Source: Litoditis marina (lineage: Eukaryota; Nematoda; Chromadorea; Rhabditida; Rhabditidae). From it: a DNA stretch of 64,000 nt. The notes under the pieces were generated by a model. The model saw only the letters and a program-made list of their open reading frames with translations, was not told the DNA's origin and ran no database searches. The stretch spans positions 3,408,013-3,472,012 of the forward strand of contig OZ038433.1 in the NCBI GenBank assembly GCA_964036275.1, in the 5' to 3' direction. Shown in pieces: positions 35,022 to 64,000 of this stretch (the first letter of the stretch is position 1; every line of letters begins with the position of its first letter). The position numbers were made by a program, and so were the translations under genes.

Positions 35022-35942
35022 TCTATATATAATTCCCTTGCTTGGTGTGTCTGTCCGGAATTCCTTCACTGTTGCACTTTTTGCCGGAAAATGGGCGAAT
35101 TCTTACACTATTGCACTTTCTGACTGAAAAGGCGTGGAAGCCGTGCTTTTTGCTTTTCATTTTTATGGATTCGGTTCGTGTTTCGGTCTGTGACTGAATT
35201 CGGCAATAAGAACAGGAAAGCGAATAAGCCAAAATGATAAGAAAATTTATAACTAATTACAGGCGAATTTCTCCACCGACTTCTTCCCCTCCGGAACCAC
35301 AACTTCTCTCCTTTTTCTTCACATGTGTACTCTTTTTGAAGTTGAAGTAAAATAAAAATGTTAATAAAACTGTACTACTGTCTCGATGTGTGAAAATTGA
35401 GAAAGTTATCGCAGAGAACGGAGAAGGAAGTTTTCAAAAAGATTGTTGACGATTCTTAATCCAATGTTTTACCTAATTCAATATTTTGTTATCTGTTAAA
35501 TATATTTGACTGATATAATCTATTTATACTATGTTTGAAGAGACAGGTTTCAAGAAGAGAGAAATTTCAAGAGAAGCTGTTTGCTTTTCATTGTTTTCTG
35601 TTTTGGTTTATGTTCGGTGACAGACGGCAAAGAGCATTGGTTTTTCGATTTTTGAAAAAGGTTGACACACTTCAAAAATTAAATCCATTGATCCATTGAA
35701 CCGGAAATTTGTCACATTTGAAATTGAAAATAATGAAGACCAAAGAGAATACGCCTGTGGTAATAAAAGAAAAGAATTGCAGGATTACGTGAGCAATTAC
35801 GTGTGAATGAGGATTTGATTTTCCTTTCCAGGGTTTGTTATATATATATATATATATGATTAAATGAAATGATGTTAACCAGCTTAAACATGAATTGAGC
35901 AAGAAAACAGTGAAATTTGCGAAACATGTAGAGTAATTTCCG

Positions 35943-35949
35943 TATAAAA
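35943..35949 (+). promoter_or_regulatory. TATA box of the Helitron gene
   Basis: TATAAAA lies 49 bases upstream of the first ATG (35,992), followed by GGGGCTGAGTGAGGC and an initiator-like TAATCATT. The spacing suits a short 5-prime UTR without trans-splicing. Confidence 0.6.
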
Positions 35950-35991
35950 GGGGCTGAGTGAGGCTCTGTAATCATTATATCAACACACAAC

Positions 35992-44900: not shown

Positions 44901-45372
44901 GTGGAGCAAGAAAAGGATCCGTTGTTTTCATTCCGCGCATAGACAACTTCACAGAGAAAGGTATATTACTTTATGGAAATGATGCTCTACCAGGAAACGG
45001 AAGAAAAGAAAAAAATGGACACAAACTTTGAAAAAATATTCTGTTCACCATTTTATAGTCATTTCGTATTCATAAATGTTTGAAACTAATAATACCCAGT
45101 CAGGATATTTTAAAAAAATTTCTTAAAATTAGTTTTCAGGTTTGCCCTTTCGTTTAAGAAGACGTCAATTCCCTGTACGACTGGCATTTGCTATGACTAT
45201 TAATAAGTCGCAAGGTCAATCACTCACACATGTCGGTCTCTATCTACCGCAGCATGTATTTGGTCATGGACAGTTGTACGTGGCTATGTCTCGCGCACGG
45301 AGCATGCAGGGATGCAAAATATTGTCGCTCTCGGGAACTTACAAGAATGTTGTCGAGAAAAGTGTTCTGTAA
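35992..45372 (+). CDS. Helitron Rep-helicase protein
   Basis: Rolling-circle transposase with an N-terminal HUH endonuclease and a PIF1-type helicase. Exons: 35992-36110, 36252-36392, 36499-36648, 36806-36943, 37050-37199, 37357-37494, 37601-37750, 38909-39037, 39214-39282, 39397-39465, 39588-39757, 39866-40437, 40544-41348, 41561-41805, 41871-42170, 42346-42469, 42542-42647, 42820-43192, 43366-43991, 44224-44706, 44786-44960, 45140-45372; about 1,820 aa. Seen in order: Arg/Ser-rich repeats, Cys motif [11 protein letters not shown] with CC further on, Rep motif [16 protein letters not shown] motif [10 protein letters not shown], tyrosine motif YLFKYVYKG, Walker A GPGGSGKT, Walker [20 protein letters not shown], and C-terminal [10 protein letters not shown] and YVAMSRARS. 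All catalytic residues are present. One phase conflict, between 42,469 and 42,542, may inactivate it or reflect a wrong splice choice. There is no OTU or endonuclease fusion. Confidence 0.9.
36252..37750 (+). repeat. Triplicated exon pair (551-bp unit) in the Helitron
   Basis: Three consecutive copies of an intron-exon-intron-exon block. Exons 36252-36392/36499-36648, 36806-36943/37050-37199 and 37357-37494/37601-37750 encode almost the same Arg/Ser-rich and Gln/Pro-rich segments. Copies 2 and 3 are offset by exactly 551 bp and differ at very few positions, so the last duplication is recent. Confidence 0.92.
37814..38690 (+). repeat. 157-bp tandem repeat in a Helitron intron
   Basis: GATCAAACTACATCACACAT recurs at 37,814, 37,971, 38,128, 38,285, 38,442 and 38,593. 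The period is 157 bp four times, then 151. The last copy is diverged. The unit carries the CAAACTAC motif also seen in dispersed repeats of the window. Confidence 0.93.
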
Positions 45373-45652
45373 GATAACGTGTCATTAATTTAATAAACAT
45401 TTTAATGCATTTCTACTTACAATGTTATGAAACGGACGAGCACAAAACGGTTGTACATCCAAGAACACCATAAAGTTAGGCAGTCGTACATTTGTATTTA
45501 GATAACCCTAACGGAATATGCTAAACAATATTAACGCTTTTCATGATTTCAACATCACTGGACGTGTCCAAACAACTCAGTTTTCGTTATAATATTGCAG
45601 CCTAAACTCATCAAGGGAGGGGCCCGGGCGTTAGCCCGGGCTACCTTCCTTG

Positions 45653-47045
45653 TCCACCTCTATATTTGGGTAGTTTGGTGTGTATGTCCGAAAATCTCAC
45701 AGTTTGCACTTTTGGTCGAAAATTGGGCGAATTCCATCACTATTGCACTTTCTAACTGGGAAGGCATGGAAGCCGTGCTTTTTTCTTTTTCATTTTCAAT
45801 TGGCAGTGGGATGGGGAGTGGTGGATCACTGTTTTTTTTTTCGCGGTAAGAAAATTAAAACGAGTTAACGTGAGCTACGCTGCAAATTTTGGAAAAAGCC
45901 ATTTTGCCTTACTGGCGACTTGGGAGGCGGCTGGGATGTATTGAAACAGGTAATTATATTTATTTTTGGTTTATTATCTCTCTTTGTGTTTCTCTTTCTT
46001 TTTCTCATCTCTTTTTTCTCATACTCTCATTTTCGTTGTGTATGTGATTGTGTATGTGTTAACCCACACTTCGCATTTTCACTGTCTATGTTGGCCTCAC
46101 TGTTTTCATTCTAGCTATGTGAATGCTCAGTGTTTCCGCTGTCATTGTGAGCCCGACTGTTCTCATTTTAGCTGTCTATGTGAATCCACACGGTTTCAAT
46201 TTTTGCTGTGTATTTGAGCTCCATAGTCTCAATTTTCGCTGTGTAATGGAGCCCCACTGTCCATATTTTTGTTGTCTATGTGAATTAGGGTTGTTAAAAA
46301 TAAAACTCGAAAAACTCGAAAAAAAAAACTCGAAAAAAAACCCCACTACTTTCATTCTCGCTGTCTATGTAAGCCCCACTGTCCCCATTTTCGCTGTTAA
46401 TGGGAGCCCCACGGTTTCCAGTTAGCTGTGTGTGCGAGCCCCACTGTTCCCATTTTCGCTGTCTATGTGAGCCCCACTGCCCCCATTTTCGCTGTCTATG
46501 TGAGCACCAATGTCCCCATTTTCGCTGTCTATGTGAGCACCAATGTCCCCATTTTCGCTGTCTATGTGAGCCCCACTGTCCCCATTTTTACTGTCTATGT
46601 GAGCCCCACTGTCCCCATTTTCGCTGTCTATGTGAGCCCCACTGTCCCCATTTTTGCTGTCTATGTGAGCCTCACTGTCCCCATTTTCGCTGTCTATGTG
46701 AGCCCCACTGTCCTCATTCTCGCTGTCTATGTGAGCCCCACTGTCCCCATTTTCGCTGTTTATGTGAGCCCCACTGTCCCCATTTTCGCTGTTTATGTGA
46801 GCCCCACTGTCCCTATTTTCGCTGTTTATGTGAGCCCCACTGTCCCTATTTTCGCTGTTTATGTGAGCCCCACTGTGCTTGCTTGCTTTGTATGTTGTTT
46901 TTGAAACCATTGAGTGGGTGAAGTGAGAAGAAAAATGAAAAAAAAATAGAGGGAAAGAAAGGAGAAAAGAGAGAGCAGCAAGCTGTCGACAGCCTAGACT
47001 CATCAAGGGAGGGGGAGCCGGCTTTAGCCGGCGGCACCTTCCTTG
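45653..47045 (+). mobile_element. Helitron-like element 1 (33-mer class)
   Basis: Starts TC directly after the autonomous element's hairpin. The subterminal region has TTGCACTTTTGGTCGAAAAT and GGCATGGAAGCCGTGC, then a conserved GGCTGGGATGTATTGAAACAG|GTAAT sequence that looks like a splice donor, then the 33-mer array. It ends with hairpin GCCGGC-TTTA-GCCGGC in CAAGGGAGG...CCTTCCTTG (47,004-47,045). A CGAGTTT-type insertion (AGGGTTGTTAAA) lies at 46,285-46,340. No protein gene. Confidence 0.75.
46341..46880 (+). repeat. 33-mer minisatellite array
   Basis: About 16 copies of GTGAGCCCCACTGTCCCC + ATTTTCGCTGTCTAT, with degenerate copies back to 46,030. The period of 33 is a multiple of three, so several frames on both strands stay open without coding. 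Confidence 0.92.
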
Positions 47046-47227
47046 TCCTTTGTATATTTCGCTTACTTGGTTTGTCTGTTTGTTTGTTTGTGCAATAGTG
47101 AAGGAATTCGCCCATTTGCCGGCTAAAAGTGCAAAAGTGAAGGAATTTCGGACAAACCAAGCAAGCGAAATATATTCAGACTCATCAAGGGAGGGGGAGC
47201 CGGCTTTAGCCGGCGGCACCTTCCTTG
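47046..47227 (+). mobile_element. Miniature Helitron-like element 2 with inverted ends
   Basis: Only a 5-prime end, its inverted copy (TATATTTCGCTTACTTGG ... CCAAGCAAGCGAAATATA) and a 3-prime hairpin (47,186-47,227, GCCGGC type). There is no internal array. Confidence 0.65.
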
Positions 47228-47300
47228 TCTATTAATATATTTCGCTTGCTTGGTTTGTCCGAAATTCCTTCACTTTTGCACTTTTAGCCGGCAAATGGGA
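47228..47300 (+). mobile_element. Truncated 5-prime end of Helitron-like element 3
   Basis: Begins TCTATTAATATATTTCGCTT and breaks off near 47,300 into an antisense 33-mer array that belongs to the next, reversed element. Confidence 0.6.
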
Positions 47301-48395
47301 AAGTGGGACTCAGATACACAGCAAAAATGGGGACAGTGGGAATCAAATACACAGCAAAAATGGGGACAGTAGGCTCAAATACACAACAAAAAGGGGGGGA
47401 CAATGGGGCTCACATAGACAGCCAAAATGGGGACAGGGGGGGGGATCAACCACACAGCAAAAAATTGGACAGTGGGGTTCAAATACACAGCAAAAATGGG
47501 GACAGTGGGGCTCAAATACACAGCGAAAATTAGAACAGTGGGAGCTCACACAGACAGCAAAACGAAAACATTGGGGATTCACTTACACATAAAAATGGGG
47601 ACAGTGGGATTCACTTACACATAAAAATGGGGACACTGGGACTCACATACACAGCAAAAATTTTGACAGTGGGGCTCAAATACACAGCAAAAATGGGGAC
47701 AGTGGGGTTCAAATACACAGCGAAAATTAGAACAGTGGGGCTCATACAGACAGCGAAATGAAAACGTTTGGGATTCACATACACATCGAAATGGGGACAG
47801 TGGGACTCACATACACAGCAAACATTTGGACAGTGGGGCTCAAATACACAGCAAAACTGGGGACAGTGGGGCTCAAATACACAGCAAAAATTAGAACAGT
47901 GGGGCTCATACAGACATCGAAATGAAAACGTTTGGGATTCACATACACATCGAAATGGGGACAGTGGGACTCACATACACAGAAAAAATTAGGACAGTGG
48001 GAATCAAATACACAGCAAAACTGGGGACAGTGGGGCTCAAATACACAGCAAAAATTAGAACAGTGGGGCTCATACAGACAGCGAAATGAAAACGTTTGGG
48101 ATTCACATACACATCGAAATGGGGACAGTGGGACTCACATACACAGCAAAAATTAGGACAGTGGGAATCAAATACACAGCAAAAATGGGGACAGTGGGGC
48201 TCAAATACACAGCAAAAATTAGAACAGTGGGGCTCATACAGACAGCGAAATGAAAACGTTTGGGATTCTCATACACATCGAAATGGGGACAGTGGGACTC
48301 ACATACACAGCAAAAATTAGGACAGTGGGAATCAAATACACATCAAAATGGAGACAGTGGGACTCACATACACAGCAAAAATATCTGTAGACTAT
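47300..48395 (-). repeat. 33-mer array, antisense, with 164-bp higher-order unit
   Basis: ACAGTGGGGCTCACATACACAGC-type units. Blocks of five units repeat every 164 bp between 47,768 and 48,320 with few changes, which shows recent block duplication. Confidence 0.88.
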
Positions 48396-48571
48396 CAAAA
48401 GTATCACGTAGAGTGTGCCCTTCAATTTAACTCAACAATATTTACTGAAAATGACTTTCCAGCAACATCTGAATGGGAACGGTGGGGCTCACATAGACTA
48501 CAAAATAGGAACAGTGGGGCTTACATAGACAGTACTGAACTTTTTTAATCTCTCTCTCTCTCTCTCTCTCT

Positions 48572-48631
<60 letters not shown>

Positions 48632-49040
48632 TTTTCACACTGTTCCTGAATACACACAACCTAAATACACAACGAATACAATACCCCTTTCTACAAAAAA
48701 AAAGATTCTGAGAGGATAAGTAAGCAATATCATCACATTTTCTATACGGAGAGTGACCTAATCATTTGAAAACCGAAATAAAAAGCAATTCTCACCTTTT
48801 CAGTATATTGCAGCCTCTTTTGATTGTTAAATACAATTAATTAAAGTATTGTAGCCGAAAATATTGCAGCACTACCGCCACCATTCTCATCTCGGAACAA
48901 AATGAAAAAGCAAAAAGCACGGCTTCCACGCCTTTCCAGTTCTAGAGTGCAAACTGTGTGATTTCTCTCGATTTTCGACTAAAAGTGCAAAAATGAAGGA
49001 ATTCCGGACACACAAACAGACCAAGCAAGGGAATTATAGA
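47301..49040 (-). mobile_element. Helitron-like element 4, reverse orientation, 3-prime truncated
   Basis: Its 5-prime end is at 49,040 (reads TCTATAATTCCCTTGCTTGG on the minus strand, almost as in the autonomous Helitron). Going leftward come the subterminal region, a CT microsatellite and an antisense 33-mer array with a 164-bp higher-order period (47,768, 47,932, 48,096). It is a reverse-complement copy of 51,577-52,510. Confidence 0.7.
48549..48628. repeat. CT/GA microsatellite
   Basis: About 80 bp of TCTC repeats with one interruption. Its inverted counterpart is at 51,988-52,050. Confidence 0.97.
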
Positions 49041-49159
49041 CAAGGAAGGTACCCCGGGCTACGCCCGGGTCCCTCCCTTGATGAGTCTAGATCGGTGGTT
49101 GCGTCGATAAGTCTTTTTCATCTTCAAAAGTCCTCGAGCGAGATAGCTTTCTTCGACAT

Positions 49160-50165
49160 AGAGTGCGACTGTTTTCTTTAACATAGAGCGCGAAAGTTTT
49201 TTCTTAACATAGAGCGCGAGGGTTCCCCTTAACATAGAGCGCCGGAGTTCTCCTTAACATAGAGCGCGAGAGTCTTAACATAAAGCGCGAAAGTTCCCCT
49301 TAACATAGTGCGCAAAAGTTCCCCTTAACAAAGAGCGCGAAAGTTCCCCTTAACAAAGAGCGCGAAAGTTCCCCTTAACATAGAGCGCGGGAGTTCTCCT
49401 TAACATAGAGCGCGGGAGTCTTAACATAAAGCGCGAAAGTTCCCCTTAACATAGAGCGCGAAAGTTCCCCTCAACAAAAAGCGCAAAAGTTCCCCTTCAC
49501 ATATGGCGCGGGAGTTCTCCTTAACATAGAGCGCGCAAGTCTTAAAATAAAGCGCAAAAGTTCCCATTAACATAGAGCGCAGGAGTTCTCCTTAACATAA
49601 AGCGCAAAAGTTCTTCCTAATCTGAACATAGAGCGCGAAAGTTCTTCTTAACATAGGGCGCGAAAGTTCTGTTTAAGATAAAGCGCAAAAGTCATCCTAA
49701 ACATAGAGCGCAGTATTTCTCCTCAACATAGAGCGCGGGAGTCTTAACATAGAGCGCGGAAGTTCTTCTTGGCATAGAGCGCAAAAGTTCTCTTTAAAGG
49801 AGGGCAGAATGGAAAGCTAGTTTAGGTACCCCGGGGTACCTAAACATAGCGTTGCGCGCGTCAAAACCGACTAAAACATGTTAACAGTATGCAAATTAGG
49901 TTGGTTAGTTTGAATGAAGAATAGTATTTATGAGTTTCGCTCGAGCAGCTCTTTCATATTAACTTTCCTTTCTGTCCCCCTTTAACATAGAGCGCAAAAG
50001 TTCTTCTTAACATAGAGCGCGGGAATTCTCCTTAACATAAAGCGCTAAAGTTCTTCTTAATCTTAATATAGAGCGCGAAAGGTCTTCTTGACATAGAGCG
50101 CGGGAGTTCTCCTTAACATAGAGCGCGAAAGTTCTTCTTGACATAGAGCGCGGGAGTTCTCCTCA
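49160..50165 (-). repeat. GCGCTCTATGTTA minisatellite, antisense
   Basis: Units of about 25 bp read TTAACATAGAGCGCGAAAGT on the plus strand. GAAAGTTCCCC and GGGAGTTCTCC variants alternate, suggesting a dimeric higher-order unit. Confidence 0.92.
49794..49985. mobile_element. 192-bp MITE inside the minisatellite, copy 1
   Basis: TTAA-flanked, with inverted ends AAAGGAGGGCAGAATGGAAAG and CTTTCCTTTCTGTCCCCCTTT (written in plus sense, imperfect). It contains a perfect 26-bp palindrome at 49,820-49,845 (GTTTAGGTACCCC and its complement). The inverted counterpart is at 53,039-53,230. Confidence 0.8.
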
Positions 50166-50214
50166 GACTCATCAAGGGAGGGGGAGCCGGCTTTAGCCGG
50201 CGGCACCTTCCTTG
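50166..50214 (+). mobile_element. 3-prime end fragment of a Helitron-like element
   Basis: ACTCATCAAGGGAGG, GCCGGC-TTTA-GCCGGC hairpin (50,173-50,214) and CCTTCCTTG, with no forward-oriented body to its left. Confidence 0.7.
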
Positions 50215-51238
50215 TCTATTAATATATTTCGCTTGCTTGGTTTGTCCGGAATTCCTTCATTTTTGCACTTTTAGCCGGAAATCGGGCGAATTCCTTCACT
50301 ATTGCCCTTTTGGTCGAAAAACGTGTGAGCGGCGTGCTTTCGCTTTTCATTTCCATTCTCGATGATTTTCTCTGCGGTAGTGCTCTGATTTTCTGCTTTA
50401 TGAATCTGATTTTCTGCTCTATAATCGTATTTATCAATTACTGGGAGGCTGCAATGTGCTGAAAAGGTGAGAATTAAATTTTTTACGCTGTTCATGTCGT
50501 CACTACAACTACGTTTTTGGTTTTTTAAAGTCCTTTCATGTATTTGGGTCCTATTAGTAGTTATAATACTTTTTTAATGGAAATTTACACCCTATATGTT
50601 CAACTGTCTTCCCATGTCATTTTCACTATTTATGTGAGTCTCACTGTTCCAATTTTTGCTGTGTATGTGAACGCACTGTTTCCATTCGGCTGTTGCTGGA
50701 AAATTATTTTGACCCCAGTAAATAGACATAGAGGGAGAGAGAGGGTGAGAAAATAAGTCGTGCCTTCTTTGTTTTGCATTTTCGCTGTGTTTGTCAATTT
50801 CCACGGTTTTCATTTTAGCTGTGTATGTGATCCCTACTGTCCACATTTTTGCTGGCTATGTGAGTCCCAGTTGTTTTCAGTCTCGCTGTCTAAGTGAGTC
50901 CCAACGTTCCCATTCTCGCTGTCTATGTGAGTTCCAATGTTTTCATTTCCATTGTCTATATAAATTTCACTCTCCTCATTTTTGCTGTCTGTGTGAGCCC
51001 TACTGTTTTTATTTTTGCTGTCTAAGTAAGCCTCACTGTTCCCAGTTTCGCTGTCTATGTGTGTTGTTATGCTGTTCCAAAAGTAATTGTTGTCACAGGT
51101 TCCATGTTAGAAAGAGGTCTCGCGCTCTATGCTAGAGAGAGGACTCGCGTTCTATGTTAAAGAGAGGTCTCGCGCTCTATGTCAGAGAGAGGTCTCGCGT
51201 TCTATGTAAGAGAGAGAGAGAGGTCTCGCGTTCTATGT

Positions 51239-51315
<77 letters not shown>

Positions 51316-51576
51316 GACTCGCGCTCTATGTTAGAGAGAGGTCTCGCGCTCTATGTTAGGAAGAGAGCTCGCGCTTTATGTGCGGGAGAGATGTCGCGCT
51401 CTATGTGAAGCTATATTGTGGCGCTCTATGTTGTGAAAAAAGTGATTGAAGTGATTAAGAGAAACGTGGGTACGAAAATAGGGAAAACATTGGACAAGTA
51501 CTCCTGGGAGCGCTCGCCAGCCTGGAATAAAAACAAGGGAGGCGGAGGCGGCTTTAGCCGCCGGCGACCTTCCTTG
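50215..51576 (+). mobile_element. Helitron-like element 6
   Basis: Starts TCTATTAATATATTTCGCTT. The subterminal region ends in GCTGCAATGTGCTGAAAAG|GTGAG, a donor-like site. A degenerate 33-mer array follows (50,620-51,070), then a short 25-mer array (51,110-51,420) with a GA microsatellite, and hairpin GGCGGC-TTTA-GCCGCC at 51,534-51,576. It carries both repeat families. Confidence 0.75.
51231..51316. repeat. GA microsatellite
   Basis: Nearly pure GA dinucleotide run inside the 25-mer array. It may have grown from the AGAGAGAG part of the unit. Confidence 0.95.
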
Positions 51577-51980
51577 TCTATTAATATATTTCGCTTGCTT
51601 GGTTTGTCCGAAATTCCTTCACTTTTGCACTTTTAGCCGGCAAATGGGCGAATTCCTTCACTATTGCACTTTCCAACTGGGAAGGCGTGAGCGGCGTGCT
51701 TTTTGCTTTTCATTTTGTTCCGAGATGAGAATGGTGGCGGTAGTGCTGCAATATTTTCGGCTACAATACTTTTAATTAATCGTATTTATCAATCAAAAGA
51801 GGCTGCAATATACTGAAAAGGTGAGAATTGCTTTTTATTTCGGTTTTCAAATAATTAGGTCACTCTTCGTATAGAAAATGTGATGATATTGCTTACTTAT
51901 CCTCTCAAAATCTTTTTTTTTGTAGAAAGGGGTATTTTATTCGTTGTGTATTTAGGTTGTGTGTATTCAAGTACAGTGTG

Positions 51981-52049
<69 letters not shown>

Positions 52050-52052
<3 letters not shown>

Positions 52053-52560
52053 AAAAAGTTCATTACTGTCTATGTAAGCCCCACTCTTCCTATTTTGTAG
52101 TCTATGTGAGCCCCACCGTTCCCATTCAGCTGTTGCTGGAAAGTCATTTTCAGTAAATATTGTTGAGTTAAATTGAAGGGCACACTCTACGTGATACTTT
52201 TGATAGTCTACAGATATTTTTGCTGTGTATGTGAGTCCCACTGTCTCCATTTTGATGTGTATTTGATTCCCACTGTCCTAATTTTTGCTGTGTATGTGAG
52301 TCCCACTGTCCCCATTTCGATGTGTATGTGAATCCCAAACGTTTTCATTTCGCTGTCTGTATGAGCCCCACTGTTCTAATTTTTGCTGTGTATGTGAGTC
52401 CCACTGTCTCCATTTTGATGTGTATTTGATTCCCACTGTCCTAATTTTTGCTGTGTATGTGAGTCCCACTGTCCCCATTTCGATGTGTATGTGAATCCCA
52501 AACGTTTTCATTTCGCTGTCTGTGTGTTTTCATTTCGCGGTGTGTGTGTGTGTGTGTATG
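52050..52560 (+). repeat. 33-mer minisatellite with block duplication
   Basis: TGAGTCCCACTGTCCCCATT-type units; a block of about 160 bp is repeated. It mirrors 47,940-48,540. Confidence 0.85.
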
Positions 52561-52714
52561 TCTGAGGCAAATGCTTTTTGGTCGAGAAATCGGAAAGAAA
52601 TGGTGCACTTTGTAGTTGGTTTTTTGGAGAAAAGCCGTGAAAAATACGTGCTTTTCCGTTTTAATTTTGGATTTTTCTGAAACCGGCTGCTACTAGAAAC
52701 TGAGATTGTGTTGA

Positions 52715-53870
52715 GAACTTCCGCGCTCTATGACAAAAAGAACTTTCGCGCTCTATGTTAAGGAGAACTCCCGCGCTCTATGTCAAGAAGAACTTTCGCG
52801 CTCTATGTTAAGGAGAACTCCCGCGCTCTATGTCAAGAAGAACTTTCGCGCTCTATGTTAAGGAGAACTCCCGCGCTCTATGTCAAGAAGAACTTTCGCG
52901 CTCTATGTTAAGGAGAACTCCCGCGCTCTATGTCAAGAAGACCTTTCGCGCTCTATATTAAGATTAAGAAGAACTTTAGCGCTTTATGTTAAGGAGAATT
53001 CCCGCGCTCTATGTTAAGAAGAACTTTTGCGCTCTATGTTAAAGGGGGACAGAAAGGAAAGTTAATATGAAAGAGCTGCTCGAGCGAAACTCATAAATAC
53101 TATTCTTCATTCAAACTAACCAACCTAATTTGCATACTGTTAACATGTTTTAGTCGGTTTTGACGCGCGCAACGCTATGTTTAGGTACCCCGGGGTACCT
53201 AAACTAGCTTTCCATTCTGCCCTCCTTTAAAGAGAACTTTTGCGCTCTATGCCAAGAAGAACTTCCGCGCTCTATGTTAAGACTCCCGCGCTCTATGTTG
53301 AGGAGAAATACTGCGCTCTATGTTTAGGATGACTTTTGCGCTTTATCTTAAACAGAACTTTCGCGCCCTATGTTAAGAAGAACTTTCGCGCTCTATGTTC
53401 AGATTAGGAAGAACTTTTGCGCTTTATGTTAAGGAGAACTCCTGCGCTCTATGTTAATGGGAACTTTTGCGCTTTATTTTAAGACTTGCGCGCTCTATGT
53501 TAAGGAGAACTCCCGCGCCATATGTGAAGGGGAACTTTTGCGCTTTTTGTTGAGGGGAACTTTCGCGCTCTATGTTAAGGGGAACTTTCGCGCTTTATGT
53601 TAAGACTCCCGCGCTCTATGTTAAGGAGAACTCCCGCGCTCTATGTTAAGGGGAACTTTCGCGCTCTTTGTTAAGGGGAACTTTCGCGCTCTTTGTTAAG
53701 GGGAACTTTTGCGCACTATGTTAAGGGGAACTTTCGCGCTTTATGTTAAGACTCTCGCGCTCTATGTTAAGGAGAACTCCGGCGCTCTATGTTAAGGGGA
53801 ACCCTCGCGCTCTATGTTAAGAAAAAACTTTCGCGCTCTATGTTAAAGAAAACAGTCGCACTCTATGTCG
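52715..53870 (+). repeat. GCGCTCTATGTTA minisatellite
   Basis: Units such as GCGCTCTATGTTAAGGAGAA alternate between CTTTCGCG and CTCCCGCG versions, especially cleanly at 52,740-52,940. Inverted copy at 49,160-50,165. Confidence 0.93.
53039..53230. mobile_element. 192-bp MITE inside the minisatellite, copy 2
   Basis: Reverse complement of 49,794-49,985, at the corresponding place in the repeat, with the same 26-bp palindrome (53,179-53,204). It was therefore inserted once, before the host element was copied. Confidence 0.8.
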
Positions 53871-54179
53871 AAGAAAGCTATCTCGCTCGAGGACTTTTGA
53901 AGATGAAAAAGACTTATCGACGCAACCACCGATCTAGACTCATCAAGGGAGGGACCCGGGCGTAGCCCGGGGTACCTTCCTTGTCCTTTGTATATTTCGC
54001 TTACTTGGTTTGTCTGTTTGTTTGTTTGTTTGTAACCGATTCCATCATTTTTGCACTTTTAGCCGGAAAATGGGCCGAAAACTGAAGCCGGCGATTTTTC
54101 CAGCTAAGACGTGAGAGAACGTGAGCAATTCATTTTCCGAATCGGTTGCTGCTGGGCAGTTTTGCAATAGCAAGTGCAT

Positions 54180-54530
54180 CTTAACTGGGTAGACGAGTTT
54201 CACGCTGTCACGGTTAACAGGAATGGCTTAACGGGGTAGGAAAATGGGTATAAAAGCGCAGCGGGAAGGGGGAGAGTCATTCGAACGCTCTGTTCGCCCC
54301 GAGGATGCCCTGGACTGGAGCTGCTGCCGTGGATTGGACCGCTGATGGTTGGACCGGAGTCCTGCGTAGGAGCCACTGGGGATCCTGCTGCCTGTCGGGT
54401 GCTGCACACATGATGAAGAAGAGAAGAAGAAACTCTGCACCCCAAATAATGTAGACAAAAAGAGATTTCTAATTTGTGTTGTTCTCGGGTTTTGCTGTTT
54501 TGAAACTAATTGTTGTTACGGGTTACCTCC
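54180..54530 (+). promoter_or_regulatory. TATA module 1
   Basis: GTTAACAGGAATGGCTTAAC, then GGGTATAAAAGCGC (TATA at 54,249-54,255), then CATTCGAACGCTCTGTTCGC about 25 bases on, then an open frame starting MPWTGAAAVDWTADGWTGVL. The layout resembles an LTR promoter or leader. It points into the 25-mer array. Confidence 0.6.
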
Positions 54531-55030
54531 GCGTCCCATGTTAGAGAAAGGTTGCTCGCCCTATGTTAGATAGAGGTCTCGCGCCCTATGTTAGGGAGAA
54601 GTCTCGCGCTCTATGTTAGAGAGAACTCTCGCGCCCAACGTTAGAGAGAACTCCCGCGCCCTATGTTAGAGAGAGGTCTCAAGTTCTCTGTTAGGGGAAT
54701 GTCACACGCTCTATGTTAGATAGAGGTCTCGCGCCCTATGTTAGGGAGAAGTCTCGCGCTCTATGTTGGAAAGAGGTCTCGCGCCCTATGTTGGGGGAAA
54801 GTCTCGCGCCCTATGTTGAGAAGTCTTGCGCTCTATGTTAGAGAGAGAGAGAGATATCTCGCGCCCTACGTTAAAAAGTCTCGCGCTCTATGTTAGAGAA
54901 AGATCTCGCGCCTTATGTTGAAAGGTCTCGCGCTCTATTTTAGAGAGAGATCTCGCGCTCTATGTTAAAGAGAGATGTCCCGCTCTATGTTGGAGAGAGA
55001 TGTCCTGCTTTACGTAGTAGAAATCATTGC
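54530..55030 (+). repeat. 25-mer minisatellite
   Basis: GTCTCGCGCCCTATGTTAGG and GCGCTCTATGTTAGAGAGAG units, irregularly mixed. Confidence 0.9.
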
Positions 55031-55389
55031 GTCTCATGTTGATAAAAACGTGATTGACATGGTCGAGACAAACGTGAGTTCAGCAAATGGAGCGAAAATT
55101 AAACAAAAACTCCTATAAGAGCTCGCCAACCTGGAATAAAAACAAGGGAGGCGGAGGCGGCTTTAGCCGCCGGCGACCTACCTTGTCCTTTGTATATTTC
55201 GCTTACTTGGTTTGTCTGTTTGTTTGTTTGTTTGTAACCGATTCCATCATTTTTGCACTTTTAGCCGGAAAATGGGCCGAAAACTGAAGCCGGCGATTTT
55301 TCCAGCTAAGACGTGAGAGAACGTGCGCATTTCATTTTCCGAATCGGTTGCTGCTGGGCAGTTGAGCAATAGCAAGTGCATCTTAACTC

Positions 55390-55715
55390 GAGTAGACGAG
55401 TTTCACGCGATCACGGTTAACAGGAATGGCTTAACAGGGTAGGAAATTGGGTATAAAAGCGCGGCGGAACGAGGGGAGAGCCATTCGAACGCTCTGTTCG
55501 CCCCGAGAATGCCCTGGACTGGAGCTGTTGCGGTGGATTGGACCGCTGATGGTTGGACCGGAGTCCTGCGTAGGAGCCACTGGGGCTCCCGCTGCCGGAT
55601 GCTGCTCGGAAGAAAGGAAGAAGAAACTCTACACATCAGAAATAGTAGACAAAAGAAATTTTTTACTGTGTTGTTTTCGGGTTTTGCTGTTTTGAAACTA
55701 ATGGTTGTTACGGGT
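55390..55715 (+). promoter_or_regulatory. TATA module 2 with open frame
   Basis: TATAAAA at 55,452-55,458 and CATTCGAACGCTCTGTTCGC downstream. An open frame at 55,509-55,736 (75 aa, starting MPWTGAVAVDWTADGWTG) continues into the first repeat unit. It matches module 3 closely. Confidence 0.6.
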
Positions 55716-56290
55716 CACTTCCGCGCCCTATGTTAGAGAGAGCTCCCGTGTTCTGTTAGGGGAAGGTCTCGCACCCTTAGTTAGGAAGAAGACTGGCGCT
55801 CTACGTTAGAGAGAGGTCTCGCGCTCTATGTTAGGAAAACGACTGGCCCTCTACGTTAGAGAGAGGTCCCGCGCCCTATGTTAGGAAGAAGTCTGGCGCT
55901 CCACGGTGGAGAGCGGTCTCGCGCTCTATGTTAGGGAGAGATCTCGCGCTCTATGTTAAAAGGAGGTTTCGCGCCCTATGTTAGAGAGATATCCCGCGCT
56001 CTATGTTAGAAGTCTCGCGCTCTATTATAGAGGGGTATCTCGCGCCCTATGTTAGGGAGAACTTTCGAAAACTCAATCGAAAAAATGTCAGAGAGAGGAC
56101 CTCTATGTTAGAGAGAGGTCTCGCACTCTATGTTAGAGAGAGGACTCGCCCTCTATGTTAGAGAGAGGACTCGCGCTCTATGTTAGAAAAGATATAGCGC
56201 TCTGGAGAGGTCTCCCACCCTATGTTAGGAAGAGGTCTCGCTATTAAAGACATTTTTCGTGCTCTATGTTAAGGAGAGTTTCCGCGGTTT
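55715..56290 (+). repeat. 25-mer minisatellite
   Basis: GCGCTCTACGTTAGAGAGAG and variants, degenerate toward 56,290. Confidence 0.88.
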
Positions 56291-56379
56291 ATGTTCTAAG
56301 AAAAGCCAGAAAGCTCCCGCCAGCCTGGAATAAAAACAAGGGAGGCGGAGGCGGCTTTAGCCGCCGGCGACCTACCTTG

Positions 56380-57758
56380 TCCTACTCTATATTTCGCTAC
56401 TTTGGTCTGTAACAATTCCATCATTTTGCACTTTTGGTCGAAAAGAGAGTGAGGCAAATGATGGAACTGGGCAAAGATGGGAGACGTGGGAGATACGTGC
56501 TTTTTGCTTTTCATTTTCAATTGGTAGTGAGTTGGGGAGTGGTGGATCACCGTTTTTTTTTCGCGAATAGAAACTGGAAACGGGTTTACGTGAGCTGTTG
56601 GAACGCGGCAATTTTGGAAAAAGTCATTTTGCTCTACTGGCGACTCGGGATGCGGCTGGGATGCATTGAAACAGGTATTTGCGATTTATTTTTGACTTTC
56701 TCTCTCTTTCTCTCTGTTTTTCATTCCTTTATCCAACTATTCTGCTTTTTTACTCTTTTTCTCATATGTAGTAGAAAACTGTGAAACTGTAAGTCGCGCC
56801 TCCTTTGTTCTGCATTTTCGCTGTGTTTGTCAATTTCCACGGTTTCCATTTTCGCTGTCTATGTGAGCCCCAATGTCCCCATTTCCGCTGCCTATGTTAA
56901 CCCCACTGTCCCCATTTCTGCTGTCCATGTTAGCTTCACTGTCCCCATTTTCTGTCTATGTAGGCCCCATTGTCCCCATTTCCGATGTCTCTGTGGGCTC
57001 CATCCTCCTCATTTCCGCTGTCTATGTTAGCCCCACTGTCCCCATTTCCGCTGTCTATGTGAGCCCCACTGTCCCTATTTCCGCTGTCTATGTGAGCTCC
57101 ACTGTCCCTATTTCCGCTGTCTATGTGAGCCAAACTGTCCCCATTTCCGCTGTCTATGTGAGTCCCGCTGTCCCCATTTTCGCTGTTTATGTGAGCCCCA
57201 CTTATCCCATTTTTGCTGTATATGTGAGCCCCACTGTCCCCATTTCCGCTGTCTATGTGAGTTCCACTGTCCCCATTTGCGCTGTCTATGTGAGCTCCAC
57301 TGTCCCCATTTCCGCTGTCTATGTGAGCCCTACTCATTCTATTTTTGCTGTGTATGAGAGAGAGAGACGGAGAGAGACACGGAAAGAGGGACATAGAATG
57401 AGAGAGAGGGGGGGGGGTTAATGGAGAGCGTGAGAGAAGAAAGAGAGAATATAAAAGAGTCTCGCCTGTCTTGAGAGAGATGTCTCGCGCTCAATGATGA
57501 AGAAAAGAAGATGAAGAAGATGATGAAGAAGAAAAAAAGAAAAGAAAAAGAAAGAAATGAAGAAAGAATGTTAGGAATAGTTCTCGCGCTCTATGTTGAG
57601 AGAAGTATAGCGCTCTATGACGGAAAGATCCCGCGATACACGTTGAGAATAATTTCCGCGCCCTATGTCTAGGAGAAAAGAGGGCCAGGAAGCTCTCGCC
57701 AGCCCGGAACAAAAACAAGGGAGGCGGAGGCGGCTTTAGCCGCCGGCGACCTACCTTG
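56380..57758 (+). mobile_element. Helitron-like element 10 (33-mer class)
   Basis: Starts TCCTACTCTATATTTCGCTA. Subterminal region with GTGCTTTTTGCTTTTCATTT and GGCTGGGATGCATTGAAACAG|GTATT. 33-mer array 56,810-57,355. Purine-rich tract. Hairpin GGCGGC-TTTA-GCCGCC at 57,716-57,758. Confidence 0.75.
56810..57355 (+). repeat. 33-mer minisatellite
   Basis: About 16 units of GAGCCCCACTGTCCCCATTT + CCGCTGTCTATGT. The CCGCTG variant dominates here, unlike the TCGCTG form at 46 kb. Confidence 0.92.
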
Positions 57759-57939
57759 TCCATATATATATTTCGCTACTTTGGTCTGTTTGTTTGAAAC
57801 TTTTTCGCTGCACTTTTGGTCGAAAAATGGGGAGGAAACTGAGGCAAGCTGGGTGAGGCAAATGGCGTGGGGGAACGTGTGATTTCATTTTTCCCAACCG
57901 GCTGTTGCTGGGATTTGGCAATAGAAAATTTCTCTAAAC

Positions 57940-58265
57940 AGGATAGACGAGTTTCACGCCGTCACGGTTAACAGGAATGGCTTTAACGGGGTAGGAAAAT
58001 GGGTATAAAAGCGCGGCGGGAAGGGGGGAGAGCCATTCGAACGCTCTGTTCGCCGGGAGGATGCCCTGGACTGGAGCTGCTGCGGTGGATTGGACCGCTG
58101 ATGGTTGGACCGGAGTCCTACGTAGGAGCCACGGGGGCTCCCGCTGCCGGATGCTGCTCGGAAGAAAGGAAGAAGAAACTCTACACATCAGAAATAGTAG
58201 ACAAAATTTTTTTTTTACTATGTTCTCGGGTTTTGCTGTTTTGAAACTAATGGTTGTTACGGGTC
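57940..58265 (+). promoter_or_regulatory. TATA module 3 with open frame
   Basis: TATAAAA at 58,004-58,010. The open frame 58,061-58,285 (74 aa) differs from that of module 2 by a handful of residues. The differences include a length change near the middle, so protein-level constraint is not evident. Confidence 0.6.
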
Positions 58266-59480
58266 ACTTCCGCGCCCTATGTTAGAGAGAGCTCCCGTGT
58301 TCTGTTAGGGGAAGGTCTCGCACCCTTAGTTAGGAAGAAGACTGGCGCTCTACGTTAGAAAGAGGTCTCGCGCTCTATGTTAGAGAGAGGACTCACGCTC
58401 TATGTTAGAGAGAGGACTCACGCTCTATGTTAGAGAAAGGACTCGCGCTCTATGTTAGAGAGAGGACTCACGCTCTATGTTAGAGAGAGGACTCGCGCTC
58501 TATGTTAGAGAGAGGACTCACGCTCTATGTTAGAGAGAGGACTCACGCTCTATGTTAGAGAGAGGACTCACGCTCTATGTTAGAGAGAGGTTTCACGCTC
58601 TATGTTAGGGACAGTTCTCGCGCTCTATGTTGAGAAGAGGTCTCGGGCCCGATGTTAGGAAAAGGTCTCGCGCTCTGTGTTAGGGAAAGGTCTCGCGCTC
58701 TATGTTAGAGAGTGGTCTCGCGCATTATGTGAGAGAGGGGTCTCGCGCTCTATGTTAGAGAGAGGTTTCACGCTCTATGTTGAGAAGAGGTCTCGGGCCC
58801 GATGTTAGGAAAAGGTCTCGCGCTCTGTGTTAGAGAGAGGTTTCACGCTCTATGTTAGGGACAGTTCTCGCGCTCTATGTTGAGAAGAGGTCTCGGGCCC
58901 GATGTTAGGAAAAGGTCTCGCGCTCTGTGTTAGGGAAAGGTCTCGCGCTCTATGTTAGAGAGTGGTCTCGCGCTCTATGTTAGGGAAAGGCCTCGCGCTC
59001 TATGTTAGAGAGAGGACTCACGCTCTATGTTAGAGAAAGGACTCGCGCTCTATGTTAGAGAGAGGACTCACGCTCTATGTTAGAGAAAGGACTCGCGCTC
59101 TATGTTAGAGAGAGGACTCACGCTCTATGTTAGAGAAAGGACTCGCGCTCTATGTTAGAGAGAGGACTCACGCTCTATGTTGGCGAGAGGACCCACGCTC
59201 TATGTTAGACAGAGGAATCGCGCATTATGTGAGAGAGGGGTCTCGCGCTCTATGTTAGAGAGAGGTTTCACGCTCTATGTTAGGGACAGTTCTCGCGCTC
59301 TATGTTGAGAAGAGGTCTCGGGCCCGATGTTAGGAAAAGGTCTCGCGCTCTGTGTTAGGGAAAGGTCTCGCGCTCTATGTTAGAGAGAGAGGACCCACGC
59401 TCTATGTTAGAGAGAGGGATCGCGCATAATGTAAAAGATAGGACTCACGTTCTATGTCAGAGAGAGGACTATTGCGCGTC
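58265..59480 (+). repeat. 25-mer minisatellite with higher-order blocks
   Basis: GGACTCACGCTCTATGTTAG units. A marker block containing GGTCTCGGGCCCGATGTTAG recurs near 58,640, 58,790, 58,890 and 59,315, showing block duplications. Confidence 0.93.
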
Positions 59481-59607
59481 ATGTTGAAAGAAAACGTGAA
59501 TTCGACAGATGGAGCGAAAATTGAACAAATACTCTCAGAATCTCTCGCCAGCCCGGAATAAAAACAAGGGAGGCGGAGGCGGCTTTAGCCGCCGGCGACC
59601 TACCTTG

Positions 59608-61201
59608 TCCCTTTCTATAATATTTCGCTTGCTTGGTTTGTCCGGAATTCCTTCACTATTGCACTTTTAGCCGGAAAATGGGCGAAATCACACAGTTTGC
59701 ACTTTTTAACTGGAAAGGCGTGGAAGCCGTGCTTTTTGCTTTTTCATTTTCAATTGGTAGTGAGATGGAGGGTGGTGGATCACCGTTTCATGGGGGGGGG
59801 GGGGGGGGGGGGAGAAAATGGAAATGAGTTGACGTGAGCTGCTTAAACGCGGCAATTCTCGAAAAAGCCATTTTGTTCTACTGGCGATTTGGGAGGCGGC
59901 TGGGGTGCATTGAAAGAGGTATTCATATTTATTTTTGGTTTATTATCTCTCTTTGTGTTTCTCTCTCCTTTTTTTCATCTCTTTTTTTTCTCATACTCTC
60001 ATCTTCGTTCGTTGTCTGTGGGAGCCCCACTACCCCCATTTTCGTTGTCTATGTGAGCCCCACTGTCTCAATTTTTGCTGTGTATGTGAGCTTCACTATC
60101 CCCATTTTTGTTGTCTATGTGAGCCCCACTGTCTTAATTTTTGCTGTGTATGGGATCCCCACTGCCCCCTTTTCGTTGTCTATGTAAGCCCCACTATCCC
60201 CATTTTCGTTGTCTATGTGATCCCCACTGTCTCAATTTTTGCTGTGTATGGGAACCCCACTGTTCCCTTTTTGTTGTCTGTGTCAGCCCCACTGTTCTAA
60301 TTTCTGCTGTGTATTTGAGCCTACTGTCCCCATTTTTGCTGTGTATTTGATTCCCACTGTCCCCATTTTTGCTGTGTATCTGAGTCCCACTTTCCCAAAT
60401 TCGATGTGTATGTGAATCCCCAATGTTTTCATTTTGCTGTCTGTGTGAGTCCCACTGTTCTAATTTTCGCTGTCTATGTGAGCCCCACTTTGCCGTTTTT
60501 TCTGTCTATGTTAACCCCACTTTTCCCATTTGCACTGTCTGCGTGAGCTCCACTGTCCCCATTTTTGCTGTCTGTGTGAGCCCCACTGTCCCCGTTTTTG
60601 CCTTTATATGAGCCCCACTGTTCTCATTTTCGCTGTCTATGTGAGCCCCACTGTTCTCATTTTTGCTGTCTATGTTAGCCCCATTTTCCCATTTCCGCTG
60701 TCTAGGTTAGCCCCACTGTCCCCATTTCCGCTGTCTATGTGAGCCCCACTATCCCCATTTTTGCTGTTTATGTGAGCCCACTTATCCCATTTTTGCCGTA
60801 AATGTTAGCCTCATTGTCCCCATTTGCGCCGTCTATGTGAGCTCCACTGTCCCCATTTCCGCTGTCCATGTGAGCCCTACTCATCCTATTTTTGCTGTGT
60901 ATGAGAGTAAAAGATTGAAAGAGAGACGGAATGAGAGAGAAGGGGGGGGGGGGGGGGTGGTTAATGGAAAGCGTGAGAGAAGAAAGAGAGAATAGAAAAG
61001 GGTCTCGCCTGTCTTGAGAGAGATGTCTCGCGCTCATGTTGAGAGAAGTATTGCGCTCTATGTTACGGAGAGATCCCGCGATACATGTTGAAAATAAGTT
61101 CCGCGCCCTATGTCTAGGAGAAAAAAAGGCCAGGAAGCTCCCGCCAGCATGGAATAGAAACAAGGGAGGGGCCCGGGCGTTAGCCCGGGCTACCTTCCTT
61201 G
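59608..61201 (+). mobile_element. Helitron-like element 12 (33-mer class)
   Basis: Starts TCCCTTTCTATAATATTTCG. Subterminal region with GCGTGGAAGCCGTGCTTTTT, a poly-G run near 59,791-59,812, donor-like GGTGCATTGAAAGAG|GTATT, 33-mer array 60,005-60,905, hairpin GCCCGGGC-GTTA-GCCCGGGC at 61,161-61,201, the same hairpin type as the autonomous Helitron. Confidence 0.75.
60005..60905 (+). repeat. 33-mer minisatellite
   Basis: About 27 units mixing TTTTGCTGTGTATG, TTCGTTGTCTATG and TTCCGCTGTCTATG variants. Variants cluster in blocks. Confidence 0.92.
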
Positions 61202-61599
61202 TCCCTTTCTATAATTCGCCTATTTGGTTTGTCTGAAACTTTTTTCTGCACTTTTGGTCGAAAAATGGTGAGGAAACTGAGGCAAGCTGGGTGAGGCAAA
61301 TGGCGTGGGCAGCGTGTGATTTCATTTTTCCCAACCGGCTGTTGCTGGGATTTGGCAATAGAAAATTTCTCTAAACAGGATAGACGAGTTTCACGCCGTC
61401 CCTTTCTATAATTCGCCTATTTGGTTTGTCTGAAACTTTTTTCTGCACTTTTGGTCGAAAAATGGTGAGGAAACTGAGGCAAGCTGGGTGAGGCAAATGG
61501 CGTGGGCAGCGTGTGATTTCATTTTTCCCAACCGGCTGTTGCTGGGATTTGGCAATAGAAAATTTCTCTAAACAGGATAGACGAGTTTCACGCCGTCAC

Positions 61600-61830
61600 G
61601 GTTAACAGGAATGGCTTAACAGGGTAGGAAAATGGGTATAAAAGCGCAGCGGGAAGGGCGAGAGCCATTCGAACTCTCTGTTCACTCCGTGGATGCCCGC
61701 ACTGGACTGGAGCTGCTGCCGTGAATTTGATGGATGGTTGGAAGTGCTGCTGTAAGAAAAGATAGAAAAGAAGACTCTCTACACATCAAAAATAGTAGAC
61801 AAAAAGAGATTTTTCAATTCTGTTGTTCTC
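61600..61830 (+). promoter_or_regulatory. TATA module 4, shortened
   Basis: TATAAAA at 61,637-61,643 with CATTCGAACTCTCTGTTCAC downstream. Most of the open frame seen in modules 2 and 3 is deleted, but the promoter-like part is kept. Confidence 0.55.
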
Positions 61831-61839
61831 ATGTTTCCG

Positions 61840-63110
61840 CGCCCGATGTTAAAAAATAGTCTCGCGCTCTATGTTAGAAAGAGAGAGAGAGAGAAATCGC
61901 GCCCTATGTTAGAGAAAAGTCTCGCGCTCTGTGTTGAAGAAAGAGATCTCGCGATCTATGCCACAGAGAGGTCTCGCGCTATGTGTTAGAGAGCGGTTTC
62001 GCGCTCTATGTTAGAGAAAGATTTCGCGCTCTACGTTAGAGAAAGGTCTTTCGATTTATGCCAGAGAGAGAGAGAGAGAGGTCTCGCGCTCTATGCCAGA
62101 GAGAGGTCTCGCGCTCTATGCCAGAGAGAGGTCTCGCGCTCTATGTTAGGGGATCTCCCACGCCCTATGTTAGAGAGAGGTATCGCGCTCTATGTTAGGG
62201 GGGATTTCCCGCGCCCTATGTTAGAGAAAGGACTCACGTTCTATGTTAGGGGGGATTTCCAGCACCCTATGTTAGAGAGAGGTCTTGCGCTATATGTTGG
62301 CGAAAGGTCTCGCGCTCTACATTAGAGAGAGGTCTCGCGCTCTATGTTAACGAGAGGTCTCGCGCTCTATGTTGGCGAGAGGTCTCGCGCTCTACATTAG
62401 AGAGAGGTCTCGCGCTCTATGTTAACGAGAGGTCTCCCGCTCTATGTTAGGAAGAACTTCAGCTTTCCATGTTAGGGAGAGCTTCGGCACTCCCTATGTT
62501 AGGGAGAGAGAAGTCTCGCTCTCTATGTTAGAGAGAGGTCTTGCGCTCTATGTTGGCGAAAGGTCTCGCGCTCTACATGAGAGAGAGGTCTCGCGCTCTA
62601 TGTTAACGAGAGGTCTCGCGCTCTATGTTAGGAAGAACTTTAACTCTCCATGTTAGGGAGAGCTTTGGCACTCCCTATGTTAGGGAGAGAGAAGTCTCGC
62701 TCTCTATGTTAGAGAGAGGGATTGCTCTCTATGTCAGGAGGAGATTTCACGCTCTAACTTAGAGAGAGGTCGGGCTTTCTATGTTAAGGAGAGAGTGTCG
62801 CGCTCTATGTAAGCAAAAGGTCTCCGCTCTAAGTTAGGGTCTTGCTCTCTATGTTAGGGAGAGATATCGCTTTCGATGTTAGGAATAGGTCTCACGCTCT
62901 GAGCTAGAGAGAGGTCTCGCTCTCTATGTTAGGGAGAGAGTCTCGCGTTCTACGTATGGAAAATGTCTCACGTTCTAAGTTAAAGAGATCTCGCTTTCGA
63001 TGTTAGGAAGAGATATCGTTCTCTATGTTAGGGAGAGGTCTTGCGATCTATGTAAAGGAGAGGTCTCTCTCTGTGAATTAGAGAGGTATCACGCTTTTTG
63101 TTGAGAAAGA
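61840..63110 (+). repeat. 25-mer minisatellite
   Basis: GGTCTCGCGCTCTATGTTAG units with blocks repeated near 62,280-62,440 and 62,540-62,640. Confidence 0.92.
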
Positions 63111-63209
63111 CTGTTGCGCAATATGTTGAGAAAAATAAGCCAGGAGGCTCCCGCCAGCCTAGGCTCACACAAGGGAGGGACCCGGGCGTAGCCCGGGGTA
63201 CCTTCCTTG

Positions 63210-64000
63210 TCCACTAGTATAAAGCGCTAGTTTGGTGTGTTTGTGGGTTTGTAACAATTTGGCTGCACTTTTGGTCGAAAAGCCAGAGTGATGAGTGAGG
63301 CAAATGGCGTGGAAAAAACGTGATTTGGATGGATTCCATTTCTAGTTCCAAGTGAATATGAATCGGCTGCAGCTGCAAATTGACGAATTGAGCAATAGAT
63401 TTGTTCATTCAAGTTAAACAAATTGGCGTTAATGTCACGTGGGACAAGCGGAGTACACGCGGCCTCAACAGAGAGAGAAAGAGAGAGAGACATAGAGAGA
63501 TATAGATTCGCACTCTATGTTAGGGAGAACTCCCGCGCCCCATGTTAAGAAAAACTTCCGCGCTCTATGTTAAGGAGAAGTTTTGCACTCTATGTTAGGG
63601 AGAATTTGCGCTCTATGTTAGAAGGGAGTTCCGCGCTCTATGTTGGGAAGAACTTCCGCGCCCTATGTTAAGAAAAACTTCCGCGCTCTATGTTAGGGAG
63701 AAATTTTGCGCTCTGTGCTAGGGAATAGTTCCGCGCTCTATGTTAGGGAGAACTTCCGCGCTCTATGTTAGGGAGAACTCCCGCGCTCTATGTTAAGAAC
63801 AACTTCCGCGCTCTATGTTAAGGAGAAGTTTTGCACTCTATGTTAGGGAGAAATTGCGCTCTATGTTGGGAAGAACTTCCGCGCCCCATGTTAAGAAAAA
63901 CTTCCGCGCTCTATGTTAGGGAGAAATTGCGCTTTATGTTAGAAGTTAGAAGGGAGTTCCGCGCTCTATGTTGGGAAGAACTTCCGCGCCCCATGTTAAG
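63210..64000 (+). mobile_element. Helitron-like element 14, runs off the window
   Basis: Starts TCCACTAGTATAAAGCGCTA. The 5-prime end is followed by a unique stretch and a 25-mer array (63,500 onward) that continues past the window end, so the size of the whole array is unknown. Confidence 0.7.
63500..64000 (+). repeat. 25-mer minisatellite, incomplete
   Basis: CTTCCGCGCTCTATGTTAGG units. A block at about 63,530-63,680 is repeated around 63,800-63,960. Confidence 0.9.

Follow-up and report, generated by a model that had tools for sequence, protein, structure and literature searches.

Head-to-tail chains of mixed Helitrons in the nematode Litoditis marina and their probable growth by insertion at resident 3' ends

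Results

The 64,000-nucleotide stretch of Litoditis marina DNA analyzed here (the window; contig C4, positions 3,408,013-3,472,012) carries an autonomous Helitron and, directly behind it, a head-to-tail array of shorter elements with Helitron ends. Twelve direct junctions were located in the window by a regular-expression search, with hairpins starting at 45612, 47004, 47186, 50173, 51534, 53944, 55143, 56337, 57716, 59565, 61161, and 63170, and the same expression matched a single inverted junction at 49039-49080, in agreement with the thirteen junctions of the original prediction for this DNA. In the direct junctions, CAAGG, a GC hairpin, and CCTTG are followed at zero spacing by TC and the start of the next element. 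The array is real, but its predicted length of 18 kb was set by the edge of the window: in the next 100 kb it continues to about 82,840 (window coordinates), giving 20 units across 37.2 kb, or 47.8 kb counting the autonomous element. These units abut without gaps, are 0.18-3.0 kb in size and thus too short for autonomy, and each bears its own 3' hairpin, while a 5'-TC terminus is found in all 20 of them and in the autonomous element. Among the 21 direct 3' ends of the array, 20 directly abut TC and an element start, and the last one (82,840) is followed by TCATACAATATGG, apparently host DNA. No junction was found with this expression in the 65 kb left of 45,612.

The autonomous Helitron had been identified correctly in the original prediction, together with its matching ends and its position at the array edge, but it starts at 35,020 and not at 35,022. 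Its exons were searched one by one, and the features of a RepHel are present, namely an HUH Rep and a PIF1-type helicase (Table 1). The Rep region (40529-41404) matches Helraiser (7lcc) at 5.6e-76, and the five best matches of the Rep exon come from Heligmosomoides (three), Haemonchus, and Cylicostephanus, with 54-59% identity. A stop-free stretch contains what we take to be the two-tyrosine motif, recognized by eye at a place that gives no Pfam match. Three similar open reading frames of 155-158 codons lie in a row inside the element (36221-37799), adjoined by a 157-bp tandem array (37813-38669).

A second copy in the genome fixed both ends of the autonomous element. This copy, on contig C2 (start at C2:23,107,197, minus strand), is about 99.5% alike to that in C4 (99.62% over 5,983 and 99.45% over 2,187 columns). 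Of its approximately 10.1 kb, 7.3 kb were read; the other 2.8 kb lie between the aligned blocks and the end piece, and no scored 3' end is listed within them. The identity starts exactly at TC, which is preceded by ATTA in C4 and by the CCTTG of another element in C2. In a 130-base piece at the far end of the C2 copy, the last 78 bases, with the hairpin and CCTTG, are the same as in C4, whereas the right neighbors differ (TCCTATTC in C2 and TCCACCTC in C4). The identity from TC onward and the shared CCTTG end, between different neighbors, indicate that the element spans TC to CCTTG. It was found once at the edge of an array (C4) and once inside a chain (C2). As the proposed source of the C4 array, the element at its edge is at most a candidate, given its near-identical copy within another array.

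The 3' hairpins were folded for 5 of the 12 direct junctions. The stem extends to the terminal bases, including the terminal G, with z scores of -4.6 to -6.1, and for each of the five none of 200 shuffled sequences folded equally well. Hairpin type and preceding sequence are loosely linked, with GGAATAGAAA preceding a type A hairpin at 61161 and GGAATAAAAA a type C hairpin at 51534, which suggests that terminal hairpins have been exchanged. At the same two places GGAATARAAA precedes the type A or the type C hairpin. Elsewhere (L047:8139), a hairpin has inverted copies of the same pre-hairpin sequence on both sides, forming a long palindrome. The two array 5' edges that were read are both preceded by A (ATTA before TC in C4, ACAGA before TC in L010), and in the two host-like 3' flanks that were read CCTTG is followed by TCATAC (C4) and TTAATT (L048). 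From these few flanks, whose host nature is itself judged from the sequence, insertion appears to be canonical, between A and T (A^T), at array edges, with internal copies placed at G^T.

The pattern is genome-wide and not confined to this locus. In the 261.8 Mb searched, 3' ends of types A/D and C were counted, with types B and E set aside, and a follower was scored when the 5' pattern matched exactly, so that decayed ends are missed. Of 355 type A/D ends, 351 have T as the next base and 197 are followed by the 5' start of another element, as are 274 of 452 type C ends. In combination, 471 of 807 scored 3' ends abut another element's 5' start at zero distance, and 336 have no 5' pattern behind them. 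Seen from the other side, 5' ends of the pattern TCNNNNNNTATATTTCGCTWSYTTGGT (n = 134) stand after A in 8 cases and after C, G, or T in 126, of which 121 follow CCTTG and 5 other sequence; the 5' type of the autonomous element, TCTCTATATATAATTCCC (n = 53), stands after A in 9 cases and after C, G, or T in 44. A reversed-pattern control returned no match in any of the ten pattern searches.

The clustering of 3' ends was analyzed on contigs C1 and C2, for which the pattern lists are complete (157 ends). When ends within 12 kb were clustered, 91 of 99 inner ends were followed by an element, compared with 8 of 31 cluster-last ends and 1 of 27 solo ends; at 6 kb the values were 86/93, 11/35, and 3/29. 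Of 92 pairs of neighboring 3' ends spaced by no more than 5 kb, 91 share a strand, and random placement would give only 2.6 such pairs in total. The largest run on these contigs comprises 23 ends across 73 kb (C2:23.08-23.15 Mb). In the 330,132 bases examined, 79 head-to-tail abutments and no exact tail-to-tail abutment were seen. The lone loose 5'-to-5' match in this DNA is the L010 edge and was rejected as a chance match in the left flank. A region of C4 (27.72-28.13 Mb) is junction-dense on both strands in the pattern lists.

If arrays arose by duplication of blocks, particular junctions should recur. We compared 77 junctions, taken mostly from a junction-containing query and from junction-rich regions, with those near stretch ends dropped, using 205 bases before the hairpin and 130 after it. 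Among the 2,926 pairs, 51 share the left side and 96 the right side at 90% identity or more, and none shares both, where random pairing would be expected to give about 1.7. The absence of any recurrent combination is compatible with independent assembly, whereas block duplication should produce many; block duplication and unequal crossing over are rejected for these 77 junctions. The 44 neighboring pairs of four arrays, which have 20, 12, 8, and 8 units, include none that is at least 95% alike at both ends, and the 3' ends of neighbors are no more alike than shuffled ones (P = 0.12-0.60).

Elements also appear to have moved singly. A single 2-base gap is all that distinguishes units 5 and 16 of the C4 array over about 2,409 bases, and both neighbors of each are different. 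The inverted cargo of unit 3 contains 1,123 bases that equal the final part of unit 16 (likewise of unit 5) without a single difference and that run directly into a match to unit 18 (1742 bp; 1,744 columns) with 1 mismatch and 3 gap columns. The same stretch compared with unit 17 shows 81 mismatches and 32 gap columns. In the 170 columns that separate unit 17 from unit 18, the cargo agrees with 18 in 152, with 17 in 7, and with neither in 11. It sides with 18 in every one of the first 32 columns, and 6 bases from the beginning of unit 18 are missing from the copy in unit 3. In the present array unit 17 stands between 16 and 18. Since the cargo preserves a junction of unit 16 with unit 18, unit 17 looks like a later arrival. 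The simplest order, as read from these alignments, would be that 16 and 18 were adjacent, that a fragment across their junction was copied, and that unit 17 was then inserted at the internal CCTTG^T.

Individual units show further peculiarities (Table 1). Related 25-bp and 33-bp minisatellites fill many of them (46353-46876, 52714-53868, 58271-59467, and others). Units 2 and 3 (47046-50214) are each made up of about 45-72 bp of a 5' end, DNA of kin elements in inverted orientation, and the last ~50 bp of a type B 3' end, and are apparently small elements made by template switching. In the 5'-terminal duplication of unit 11 (61202-61595), the inner joint reads CGCCG/TC, and CGCCGTC is also what the normal sequence has there. 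It looks as though an internal G^TC was used in place of a true end.

Table 1 The autonomous Helitron and the units of the array, in window coordinates
Feature	Position	Strand	Description
Autonomous Helitron	35020..45652	+	10,633 bp; 5'-TCTCTATATA ... CCTTG-3'; preceded by ATTA; near-copy in C2 has the same two ends
Rep exon (Helitron_like_N, HUH motif PHCH)	40514..41401	+	PF14214, 3.8e-64
Stop-free stretch, likely two-tyrosine motif	41862..42179	+	motif by eye
PIF1-type helicase exon	43344..44015	+	PF05970, 5.5e-34; Helraiser, 7.2e-34
PIF1 helicase, middle part	44146..44838	+	PF05970, 3.8e-6
Helicase C-terminal exon (YVAMSRAR)	45133..45369	+	PF13538, 5.7e-6; PF02689, 2.7e-6; both slightly below curated cut-offs
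3'-terminal hairpin of autonomous element, type A	45612..45652	+	identical in C2 copy
Unit 1	45653..47045	+	33-bp minisatellite inside
Unit 2, 182-bp fold-back	47046..47227	+	5' end, inverted 5' fragment, final ~50 bp of type B 3' end; structure by eye
Unit 3	47228..50214	+	72 bp of 5' end, inverted 2.87-kb cargo, type B 3' end
Unit 3 inverted cargo	47296..50163	-	end of unit 16 (and 5) joined directly to unit 18 stretch
Unit 4	50215..51576	+	
Unit 5	51577..53983	+	near-copy of unit 16, end to end
Unit 6	53984..55185	+	
Unit 7	55186..56379	+	5' type as unit 6, yet ~83-84% identical to unit 6
Unit 8	56380..57758	+	
Unit 9	57759..59607	+	25-bp minisatellite inside
Unit 10	59608..61201	+	
Unit 11	61202..63209	+	first 197 bp duplicated exactly
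Unit 12	63210..64000	+	cut by window, true end 64982; units 13-20 continue to 82840
Unit 16	70058..72466		outside window; near-copy of unit 5

Discussion

The chains are probably built by single elements that insert at a resident 3' end or junction, cutting CCTTG^T, rather than at the canonical A^T. A founder element would first insert into a host A^T. Later elements, mostly too short for RepHel coding and filled with minisatellites, would then insert one at a time behind a resident 3' end, with RepHel presumably supplied in trans; the T of CCTTG^T would be a host base or the first base of the next element. Every such insertion would leave two CCTTG^T sites, so that chains could grow internally and at the 3' edge, almost always in one orientation and without spacer. 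The internal copy of the autonomous element in C2 and the case of units 16, 17, and 18 favor insertion at G^T, as does the small number of intact 5' ends after A compared with the many unfollowed 3' ends. Of the two routes that the original prediction had offered, repeated insertion at the same end is supported by the unique junction pairings, the same element between different neighbors, and the 16-18 junction, and local rolling-circle read-through does not agree with the neighbors and junctions compared.

Several observations weigh against insertion at resident 3' ends. The 5' ends of neighbors are slightly more alike than shuffled ones in C4 (P = 0.025) and C2 (P = 0.012), less clearly so in C3 (P = 0.08), and not in C487 (P = 0.37), and the first 1.8 kb of unit 17 is 93% identical to that of its neighbor, unit 18; independent insertion predicts neither. 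The 16-18 junction might stem from a different array, in which an element of the 5/16 type precedes one of the 18 type. Because the patterns are exact, decay of old founders could account for the deficit of 5' ends after A. Moreover, the data come from one genome, in which no polymorphic insertion is visible, the host-like flanks read amount to two on each side, and 8 of the 99 inner ends have no exact 5' pattern behind them. The letters of the followers were inspected for 42 of the 197 at type A/D ends and for none of the 274 at type C ends, and the C2 copy includes the 2.8 kb of unread sequence.

Growth could instead proceed canonically at the 5' edge. Each new element would enter between the host A and the T with which the first element begins, and the youngest element would stand outermost. 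The A preceding the 5' edge in C4 and L010 offers such a site, the C4 edge element is young, being nearly identical to the C2 copy, and the same alternative was proposed for a maize Helitron pair (PMC2267711). We nevertheless regard 5'-edge growth as unlikely, because this very element occupies an internal G^T junction in its C2 copy, unit 17 lies between 16 and 18, and intact 5' ends after A are few (8/134 and 9/53, against 336/807 unfollowed 3' ends), the last being a soft argument since exact patterns miss decayed ends.

Different circles might also fuse extrachromosomally at their joined ends, the composite integrating once at a host A^T. Such heteromeric circles fit the A and T flanks at the edges, the zero spacing, and the unique pairings, and the Helraiser transposase makes and cuts circle junctions (PMC5876387). 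They would, however, have to hold 20 or more elements, and the change from 16-18 to 16-17-18 suggests stepwise alteration within the array, although this is possible on a circle too; we consider this origin rather improbable.

Rolling-circle read-through or re-initiation, yielding concatemers of a source element, is the usual account of tandem Helitrons (PMC4067079, PMC12628747), and according to a nematode review Helitron rolling-circle replication can make long tandem repeat tracts (PMC9071541). It may explain the exact 197-bp duplication at the 5' end of unit 11. As the builder of the arrays it is very unlikely, as none of the 44 neighboring pairs is at least 95% alike at both ends and no junction recurs among the 77 compared. 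In addition, a 3' hairpin closes every one of the 20 units, in contrast to arrays in which many 5' ends go with one 3' end. There is similarly little to recommend homologous exchange at hairpins or minisatellites that reshuffled older arrays: the loose linkage of hairpin type to preceding sequence (61161, 51534) would fit, but two elements match to the last base at both ends between different neighbors, which would take paired exact exchanges, and the origin of the exact abutment would stay unexplained. An assembly artefact is the least credible, for although the region is repeat-rich and the case is built on assembled sequence, the 471 junctions were found by pattern on many contigs, with neighbors nearly all in the same relative orientation and no exact tail-to-tail abutment in 330,132 bases.

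The elements are canonical Helitrons in their enzyme, 5'-TC, and host A^T site, and unusual in their 3' end. What they share with Helibat1/Helraiser of bats (PMC4778049, PMC5876387) is the RepHel protein (HUH Rep plus PIF1 helicase), the 5'-TC, the 3' hairpin, and the A^T seen at array edges. In contrast, Helraiser ends in CTAG (CTRR) and its hairpin lies ~11 nt upstream of the end (PMC4778049), whereas here the end is CTTG, outside the CTRR consensus, the stem reaches the terminal G, and many copies sit on other Helitrons. The Helraiser transposase precisely cuts the joined ends of the Helitron circle in vitro (PMC5876387); as the array junction has the same make-up, RepHel may recognize the hairpin or the junction as its target. 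Helentrons, HINEs, and DINE-1 share internal tandem repeats and short nonautonomous partners but prefer T-rich sites and have subterminal inverted repeats (PMC4067079), unlike the A^T at array edges and the 5'-TC seen here. Membership in Helentron/Helitron2 was not adopted, since A and not T precedes both array 5' edges read.

Tandem Helitrons are known in other genomes, as the original prediction noted. They are reported from bats, silkworm, Drosophila, rice, and maize; in bat and maize, Helitrons that are only distantly related also lie directly adjacent (PMC4067079, PMC5148889, PMC5876387). In Oscheius tipulae, three sequential Helitron-like components occur in one telomere extension (PMC8022731). 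At maize r1, two different Helitrons likewise meet head to tail across a G/T junction, and consecutive insertion was given as the cause. That is one pair with its order unresolved, for which both routes, the host A + T of the 5' edge and G^T, were left open (PMC2267711), whereas here there are hundreds of junctions and evidence for G^T insertion. Plant centromeric arrays are also tandem and Helitron-derived (Xiong et al. 2016, via PMC12628747), yet their units are truncated, and in many arrays several 5' ends go with only one 3' end, while here every unit has both ends and neighbors differ. Nor do the chains fit rolling-circle concatemers, whose neighbors would be near-identical and whose junctions would repeat. 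In the literature searched, mostly without subscription papers, we found no description of comparably large chains built of complete, mixed Helitrons. Tandem and mixed adjacent Helitrons are already known; what sets these chains apart is the mixture of elements, the retention of both ends, and the very large number, and the novelty lies in their scale and in the evidence for G^T insertion.

The bat and maize cases did not decide how head-to-tail Helitrons form, whether by read-through or by a second insertion, at A^T or at G^T. Here the hundreds of junctions, two elements in different contexts, and an apparent pre-insertion state all point to the resident 3' end. We suggest, tentatively, that a Helitron lineage may have given up scattered A^T sites and now target the 3' ends of its kin, so that arrays would seed and enlarge themselves and spare the rest of the genome, with the hairpin end acting as both terminator and landing site. 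If this is true, a eukaryotic rolling-circle transposon would habitually target itself and so have a kind of safe haven, and the junction would be a ready substrate for enzyme tests.

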